The notes under the pieces were generated by a model that saw nothing but the letters and a program-made list of their open reading frames with translations, had not been told where the DNA came from and did no database searches. A program made the translations under genes and the position numbers. This document shows, one piece after another, positions 44,459-46,040 of a DNA stretch of 64,000 bases (positions are counted from its first letter, which is position 1; the number at the start of each line of letters is the position of its first letter). Location: positions 1,550,001-1,614,000 of the forward strand of contig NC_019792.1 in the NCBI RefSeq assembly GCF_000230715.2. The letters run 5' to 3'. The stretch is from Natronobacterium gregoryi SP2. Its GTDB lineage: Archaea; Halobacteriota; Halobacteria; Halobacteriales; Natrialbaceae.

Positions 44459-44498
44459 CGAAGGCGTTTGCGGTCGTAACATTTGCGCCACGGGTAGG

Positions 44499-44506
44499 TT
44501 TTAATA
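44499..44506 (+). promoter_or_regulatory. TATA box of the arginine-rich leader ORF
   Basis: TTTTAATA is centred about 28 bases before the ATG at 44531, the distance expected for a leaderless haloarchaeal transcript. Confidence 0.65.
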
Positions 44507-44530
44507 GGGTGGGCGAGTACGACGATACCG

Positions 44531-44617
44531 ATGAGCCAGTCCACCGGTAGCGCGCTCGCTCTTTTCGCTACCGGTGGGTCTGCCGTTTCCCGGCGGCGAC
44601 GGCGACGGGCCCGTTGA
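44531..44617 (+). CDS. Candidate arginine leader peptide upstream of argG
   Basis: The 28-codon ORF begins MSQSTGSALALFATGG and ends SRRRRRRAR, with six consecutive Arg codons (CGG, CGG, CGA, CGG, CGA, CGG) and a seventh before TGA at 44615-44617. The nucleotides 44541-44552 (CCACCGGTAGCG) pair perfectly with 44566-44577 (CGCTACCGGTGG) inside the ORF, and GACGGGC (44604-44610) pairs with GCCCGTC (44618-44624) across the stop codon. argG starts 146 bases downstream. The arrangement recalls bacterial leader-peptide attenuators and fits an arginine sensor. Confidence 0.55.
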   Translation: MSQSTGSALALFATGGSAVSRRRRRRAR

Positions 44618-44681
44618 GCCCGTCATACATACTCACCCTCGATCCCGTCCGTTTCGACGCCCCGAAAACTATATTTCTCCG

Positions 44682-44699
44682 GTTAGAGTACACTCTAAC
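44682..44699. promoter_or_regulatory. Palindromic operator upstream of argG
   Basis: GTTAGAGT-AC-ACTCTAAC is an 8-bp perfect inverted repeat. It lies 27 bases upstream of a TATA-like AATTTAAG (44726-44733), itself about 33 bases from the argG ATG at 44763. It could bind a repressor or activator of the arginine genes. Confidence 0.55.
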
Positions 44700-44762
44700 A
44701 TTAAATTTCTAAATAAGCACCGATGAATTTAAGTCCGTCCCTTCGTTCTATTCGGATACGAC

Positions 44763-46040
44763 ATGACACGTGTGGCACTCGCGTTCTCGGGCGGACTGGA
44801 CACGACAGTGTGTGTGCCGTTGCTCGAGGAAGAGTACGGATACGACGAAGTGATCGGCGTCACGGTAGACGTCGGGCAACCAGAATCGGAGTTCGAAGAA
44901 GCCGAAGAGACCGCCGAGGCGCTGGACCTCGAGCACTACGTGGTCGATGCGAAAGCAGAGTTCGCTGACTGCTGTCTCGAGGGGGTGCGTGCGAACGCGA
45001 CGTACCAGGGCTATCCGCTCGGAACCGCACTCGCGCGTCCGGTGATCGCGAAAGCGATTCTCGAGGTTGCGACGGAGCAAGACTGTGAGGGCGTCGCTCA
45101 CGGCTGTACTGGCAAAGGAAACGACCAGCTGCGGTTCGAAGCCGTCTGGCGCGACTCGGACCTCGAGGTCATCGCTCCCGTGCGTGAACTCGGACTCACC
45201 CGCGAGTGGGAAAAAGAGTACGCCGCGGAGAAGGGTCTGCCTGTCGAGGGTGGCAGCGGTGGCGACTGGTCGGTCGACACGAACCTCTGGAGCCGCTCGG
45301 TCGAAGGTGACGAACTCGAGGACCCGAACTACGTTCCGCCGACGGAAATCTACGACTGGACGGACGAGCCGACGGGCGAAACCGAAGAGATCGAAATTTC
45401 CTTCGAAGCGGGGTATCCCGTCGCCGTCGACGGCGAGGAGTACGAGCCCGTCGAACTCATCGAGTCTCTGAACGACCTGGCGGGCTCCTACGGTGTCGGC
45501 CGCACCGACGTGATGGAAGACCGTATGCTCGGCCTGAAGGTTCGCGAGAACTACGAGCATCCGGCGGCGACGACGCTTCTGAACGCCCACGAGTCCCTCG
45601 AAGGGCTCGTGCTCACCCAGGAGGAGCGCCAGTTCAAACAGCAGATCGACCAGCAGTGGGCCCAGAAAGGGTACGAAGGGCTCGTCGACGCGCCGCTCGT
45701 GAGCGCGCTCGAGGGCTTTATAGCCGAGACCCAGAAACGCGTGACGGGGACGGTGACGATCCGCTTCGAGGGTGGCAAGGCTCGCCCCGTCGCTCGTGAC
45801 AGCGAGTACGCGGCTTACTCGGCGGCACACGCCTCTTTCGACACCGAGACGGTCGGCAAGATCGATCAGGCGGACGCGACGGGCGTCGCGAAGTACCACG
45901 GCTTCCAGCGTCGCCTGGCCAACGGCGTCCTCGAGAGCAAAGCTAGCGACGGCGACGGGAACGAAAGCGAGAGCGAAGACGGGAGCGAAACGGTCGAGCT
46001 CGCGACCGACGGCGGGAACGCCTCCACGGACGGCAATTAA
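44763..46040 (+). CDS. argG: Argininosuccinate synthase
   Basis: The 425-residue enzyme joins citrulline and aspartate at the cost of ATP to AMP. It has ALAFSGGLDTTVCVPLL (ATP pyrophosphatase loop), TVDVGQPESEFEE, HGCTGKGNDQLRFE, and GGDWSVDTNLWSRSVEG. The C-terminus carries a haloarchaeal acidic tail. It begins the argG-argH pair; the two ORFs are two bases apart. Confidence 0.97.
   Translation: MTRVALAFSGGLDTTVCVPLLEEEYGYDEVIGVTVDVGQPESEFEEAEETAEALDLEHYVVDAKAEFADCCLEGVRANATYQGYPLGTALARPVIAKAILEVATEQDCEGVAHGCTGKGNDQLRFEAVWRDSDLEVIAPVRELGLTREWEKEYAAEKGLPVEGGSGGDWSVDTNLWSRSVEGDELEDPNYVPPTEIYDWTDEPTGETEEIEISFEAGYPVAVDGEEYEPVELIESLNDLAGSYGVGRTDVMEDRMLGLKVRENYEHPAATTLLNAHESLEGLVLTQEERQFKQQIDQQWAQKGYEGLVDAPLVSALEGFIAETQKRVTGTVTIRFEGGKARPVARDSEYAAYSAAHASFDTETVGKIDQADATGVAKYHGFQRRLANGVLESKASDGDGNESESEDGSETVELATDGGNASTDGN

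Follow-up and report, generated by a model that had tools for sequence, protein, structure and literature searches.

The argG genes of haloarchaea are preceded by a conserved leader peptide that is probably regulatory and senses arginine supply, with stalling of the ribosome at scarce cognate codons controlling read-through into the operon. Within the class Halobacteria, every argG locus studied has this leader, one deep-branching lineage (G034) excepted. An initial annotation of the 64-kb stretch of DNA analysed here (the window), which lies on a haloarchaeal chromosome of 3.79 Mb, had interpreted the region ahead of argG as a candidate arginine-sensing leader peptide, and this interpretation is partly supported by the evidence presented below.

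All features of the window locus lie on the forward strand. The TATA element of the leader transcript (P1, TTTTAATA, 44499..44506) is located about 31 nt 5' of the ATG (44531) of a 28-codon ORF (44531..44617), which encodes MSQSTGSALALFATGGSAVSRRRRRRAR and terminates with TGA at 44615-44617; given this spacing, a leaderless start is expected for the P1 transcript. The C-terminal end of the peptide reads S-RRRRRR-A-R, the six consecutive arginines being encoded by CGG CGG CGA CGG CGA CGG (44591..44608). Hairpin 1, a perfect 12-bp structure within the ORF (44541..44577; arms 44541-44552/44566-44577), is a candidate pause hairpin. Hairpin 2 (GACGGGC/GCCCGTC, 7 bp and perfect; 44604..44624, arms 44604-44610/44618-44624) carries the stop codon in its loop and is directly followed by a G-free tract of C, U and A (44623..44640); it is a candidate for a terminating or pausing hairpin whose formation a ribosome on the Arg run would prevent. 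The leader RNA folds more strongly than its dinucleotide shuffles (z -2.9). The first gene 3' of the leader is argG (44763..46040), behind which lie ORFs that we take, from a reading of the pathway, to be argH, argW, argX, argC and argB. The initial annotation had described the P1 TATA, the ATG, the ORF with its SRRRRRRAR end and both hairpins, all of which are present. It had also reported a TATA box belonging to argG itself, and such an element (P2, TTTAAG) does exist 35 nt ahead of the gene, at 44728..44733 rather than at 44726. A detector for a TATA element, a short ORF and a stop-spanning hairpin returned the argG leader ORF as its sole match on both strands of the 64-kb window, and two matches in 400 kb sampled from the source genome. 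A random match of this detector elsewhere (L212), ending in Trp-Asp, was dropped as no supporting downstream gene was recognised, and an apparent second copy of the leader in the source genome (L002) was rejected as a 30-bp chance similarity within an unrelated region.

Upstream DNA was read at 80 argG loci across the class Halobacteria, those nearest to the window belonging to Halobiforma and other Natrialbaceae. A short ORF ending in an Arg-rich segment, some 31 nt past a TATA element, was present in 80/80. A script found the ATG behind a TATA-like element and the Arg-rich short frame in 77 of these, and the other three were recognised by inspection (L075, with a GTG start, L079 and L082). 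Twenty haloarchaeal genomes taken from the phylum as a second sample, in which species overlap with the first is possible, gave the leader in 20/20, 18 by script and two by eye from the DNA (L371 and L372, both encoding a peptide that ends VSRRRAGSR). The TATA-to-ATG distance was 29-34 nt in all 81 argG leader loci. Conservation of the start codon, the Arg run and the stop hairpin, for which an alignment across Natrialbaceae had been suggested, thus extends even across the class. The stop is displaced downstream in six loci (L047, L061, L064, L066, L073 and L078) and the frame passes through the hairpin without a stop in four others (L004, L016, L024 and L025), the Arg-rich stretch being retained in all of them. 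No leader was present in the argG upstream regions of 19 genomes from other classes, and the deep-branching relative G034 lacked one at argG, ilvB and pheS.

Most argG loci have a GC-rich hairpin positioned at the leader stop codon or close by. Its arms vary and yet stay complementary (GGGGTCT/AGACCCC, CGGGCC/GGCCCG and GGCCC/GGGCC), and by one strict criterion the stop-spanning hairpin occurred in 57/81 argG leaders and 43/46 ilvB leaders as against 4/67 random TATA and ORF combinations. The absence of a U-tract, already conceded as a weak point of the attenuator interpretation, was borne out, since none follows hairpin 2 and the G-free C/U/A tract stands there instead. Just 3' of hairpin 2 there is nearly no G in argG and ilvB leaders (0.00, 0.00 and 0.02 from stop+10 to +24), and by analogy this C-rich tract may resemble a Rho loading site. 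For hairpin 1, whose conservation had likewise been put up for checking, 88% of the cells of its core were paired and two pairs had changed on both sides, compensatory changes that are accompanied by excess folding; the 5' part of argG and ilvB leaders gave folding z values of -1.5 to -1.8 against codon shuffles (means -1.5 and -1.75). The Arg run did not pair significantly with downstream RNA (mean z -0.02 in most loci; where P2 is missing, -0.84), and nothing consistent was found that could serve as a mutually exclusive antiterminator.

A second TATA ahead of argG is present in most Natrialbaceae and in some other families. When the interval between leader and argG was scored for TATA elements, 18 loci, from Halorussus, Haloglomus, Halovenus, Halomarina, Natronomonas and relatives, contained no TATA-like sequence; their best scores were mostly below 0 and at most 2.5, compared with a P1 mean of 12.7. 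In these loci transcription of argG must therefore pass through the leader, and the possibility that argG is transcribed only from its own TATA, which would have spoken against a leader mechanism, fails for them. Loci without P2 (L054, L056, L061, L065, L076 and L081) tend to have a further hairpin 3' of hairpin 2, with arms such as ACGATAC/GTATCGT or GCGCCGAGG/GGCGC. Two other elements were noted around the promoters of the window. A perfect 18-bp palindrome, GTTAGAGTACACTCTAAC (44682..44699), sits 5' of the argG TATA, occurs in degenerate form in relatives (GGTTAGCAGCCGCTCTA) and is possibly a repressor or activator site, a candidate operator for P2. The second, AACATTTGC (44478-44486), lies 5' of the P1 TATA and recurs in several Natrialbaceae (AACATTTGC/AATACTTGC), and is a possible activator site.

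From this arrangement we infer translation of the leader, ribosome stalling, hairpin occlusion and premature termination. RNA polymerase would start at P1 and yield a leaderless message that opens directly with the leader ATG, with a ribosome trailing the polymerase. When Arg-tRNA is scarce, the ribosome would stall on the Arg run, mainly at its CGA and CGG codons. The last codons of the run reach into or border on the left arm of hairpin 2, and judged by this geometry it is possible that the stalled ribosome would keep hairpin 2 open, so that the polymerase would proceed into argG and the operon behind it. With ample arginine, the ribosome would reach the stop codon and depart, and hairpin 2 would form beside the G-free tract. 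Transcription could then end early through hairpin 2 itself or through FttA/aCPSF1 acting on ribosome-free RNA. The archaeal FttA/aCPSF1 is a Rho-analogous factor for which a role in policing the coupling of transcription and translation has been suggested (PMC11616081). A hairpin lacking a T-stretch brought about termination of 59% of transcripts in vivo in Haloferax volcanii (PMC7237163), and therefore the missing U-tract is not fatal to the proposal.

Several observations nevertheless count against the stalling model. Hairpin 2 would also be covered by a ribosome that pauses at the stop codon, and P2 supplies argG with a bypass promoter in most Natrialbaceae. The lack of a U-tract, the lack of significant antiterminator pairing and the run-through of the frame in four loci weigh in the same direction. 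Some of these features would suit translational control, by which stalling or termination of the leader ribosome alters mRNA folding, stability or re-initiation at argG, with no premature end to transcription. The missing U-tract and the stop codon set in a hairpin accord with such a scheme, as do the ~80-150 nt of RNA that separate the leader stop from argG in loci without P2. It leaves the shared G-free tract after hairpin 2 without an obvious role in re-initiation, however, and no conserved fold covering the start of argG was seen; we consider translational control unlikely.

Two other operons are preceded by leaders of similar layout, in which Ile/Val/Leu and Phe codons, respectively, are predicted to play the part of the Arg codons. 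ilvB leaders (L122-L129, L146-L174 and L283-L302) are located between leuA and ilvB and were detected automatically in 46/50 loci; the source genome has its own (L174, L250) at G000:C1:77029-77112. Their peptides end in forms such as IIVGAA, RIVGAY and PIIVGV, with the stop within GTAGGGGC...GCCCCTAC. Hairpin 1 is common to ilvB leaders (z -1.68), as is the G-free tract, and no TATA was found between leader and ilvB in 28/28 loci. Upstream of pheS (L304-L331), 21 of 30 loci contained a leader ending GFGFFF(x) or a close variant, that of the source genome (L308, L333) lying at G000:C1:1373857-1373940; no TATA separated leader from pheS in 21 loci. pheS leaders often have a hairpin at the stop, followed by a recurring GGYGGA. 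They have neither hairpin 1 nor the G-free tract, which counts against the stalling model. The cognate share of the last 12 residues was 0.40 for Arg in argG leaders, 0.43 for Ile/Leu/Val in ilvB leaders and 0.33 for Phe in pheS leaders, and each residue class was low at the same positions in the leaders of the other operons. In Haloferax volcanii, pheS has a mapped 5'-UTR of 150-250 nt with a 26-aa upstream ORF, according to the table of such ORFs in PMC4983044; this is independent support for one leader family, provided that the mapped ORF is the GFGFFF one. No similar leader was found at trpC, trpE, hisG, pheA, hom or the other PALP-family genes examined, and no Trp-rich ORF occurred in the region upstream of pheS where trpS is expected. 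A recurring inverted element, gtacatatgagtacgtcgatgtac, was seen at the start of trpC, upstream of the gene and with no leader ORF (L089, L095, L100 and L102), and is likely an operator.

The argG leader behaves as a reading frame. Gaps within the aligned Natrialbaceae leader ORFs are all multiples of 3, and Arg makes up 0.33 of the last 15 codons in frame versus 0.18 and 0.13 in the other frames, which hold stops in many loci. Across 28 independent sister pairs, codon changes in the C-terminal part comprised 40 synonymous and 52 others, 22 of the changes being Arg-to-Arg, and those in the N-terminal part 50 synonymous and 149 others. With an Arg end that changes largely by synonymous substitution and a first half that drifts, the pattern fits a control-codon peptide and not a functional small protein. 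The codons themselves are unusual, 57.5% of leader Arg codons being CGA, 27% CGG and 6% CGC, when those of argG are 72% CGC and 2% CGA. The ilvB leaders behave likewise, with Ile as ATT in 71/87 (39/724 in ilvB) and Val as GTA in 55/103 (7/1328 in ilvB). Rare codons suit a starvation sensor, an idea established for bacterial attenuators, and the bias could partly stem from constraints at the DNA level.

This near-free drift of the N-terminal half, unlike that of a functional protein, speaks against the leader ORF being an independent small gene with a promoter and terminator of its own, encoding an Arg-rich microprotein, whose adjacency to argG is incidental or whose peptide acts in trans. The ORF does have its own promoter, and argG has its own TATA in most Natrialbaceae. 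The ORF is, however, invariably beside argG, loci without P2 require read-through, and the parallel ilvB and pheS leaders carry different cognate residues, leaving this explanation quite improbable. Searches against NCBIfam with the leader set gave no match for three leaders besides the window peptide; for the latter, C-terminal sorting domains were matched weakly, with two scores at or just above the cut-offs and the best at 16.6 bits, which we take to be a chance resemblance caused by a hydrophobic stretch with an Arg tail. An RNA element, riboswitch-like or bound by a protein, with an incidental open frame would account for the conservation of hairpins 1 and 2 and for the clear folding excess. 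It would not be expected to have frame-preserving gaps alongside stops in the other frames, Arg codons that change synonymously or a cognate residue that depends on the operon, and no Rfam family matched at E values up to 1 when the window leader, two further argG leaders, an ilvB leader and a pheS leader were searched; this account is thus more improbable still. Finally, while CGN codons come easily at this GC content, Arg-rich frames are frequent in GC-rich DNA and shuffled leader ends are still 16% Arg, a chance Arg run is rejected by the conservation and frame controls, given a frame-specific leader at every argG locus examined in the class outside one lineage, at a fixed position after a TATA and with a shared hairpin and tract.

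The leader peptide with arginine control codons may be compared with known systems. Bacterial attenuators (trp, his, ilvGMEDA, ivbL-ilvBN and Corynebacterium ilvBNC) share with the haloarchaeal leaders a short ORF that has its cognate codons close to the end and lies 5' of the operon, and hairpins within and after that ORF; for the ilv attenuators, target and amino acids are identical to those of the haloarchaeal ilvB leader. The haloarchaeal leaders differ in their archaeal promoter, their leaderless start, a stop inside the second hairpin, a G-free, C/U-rich tract in place of a U-tract, and the lack of a clear antiterminator alternative. The analogy drawn in the initial annotation is strengthened by the cognate codons that the ilvB and pheS leaders each carry and is not supported in detail as regards the U-tract and a consistent antiterminator; the proposed system would work like bacterial attenuation, with no sameness of mechanism implied. 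The leader of bacterial pheST, pheM, is Phe-rich and lies ahead of the phenylalanyl-tRNA synthetase genes, as does the haloarchaeal pheS leader; the peptide of the latter (GFGFFF) is unrelated, its host is archaeal, and a GC-rich region, with no U-tract seen, lies past its stop. The arginine-responsive leader of Salmonella speF is, by its published description (PMC6386406), likewise 5' of a gene controlled according to arginine, but is bacterial and governs polyamine rather than arginine synthesis. Among the Haloferax volcanii upstream ORFs in long 5'-UTRs tabulated in PMC4983044, with mapped transcripts, are those of pheS and of tryptophan-tRNA ligase (23 aa); that table does not list argG or ilvB and makes no link to cognate codons or attenuation.

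According to a 2021 statement, neither transcription attenuation nor antitermination had a known example in archaea (PMC8448881), and in the openly accessible literature, outside which most subscription papers lie, we found no subsequent description of an amino-acid leader peptide in haloarchaea. The leaders before argG, ilvB and pheS suggest that archaea sense amino-acid shortage via stalled ribosomes, and it seems reasonably likely that haloarchaea have a general class of cognate-codon leaders (Arg for argG, Ile/Leu/Val for ilvB and Phe for pheS) that combine stalling with premature termination in the absence of a U-tract. With three unrelated operons bearing matching codons class-wide, the 2021 statement becomes testable in Haloferax volcanii, a genetic model. 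If true, this would make it the first case of attenuation in Archaea, with an evolutionary origin separate from that of the bacterial systems; archaeal transcription-translation coupling would be tight enough for regulatory use, and the leaders would offer a natural substrate on which to study how transcription is ended by FttA/aCPSF1 or by a hairpin once ribosomes leave.
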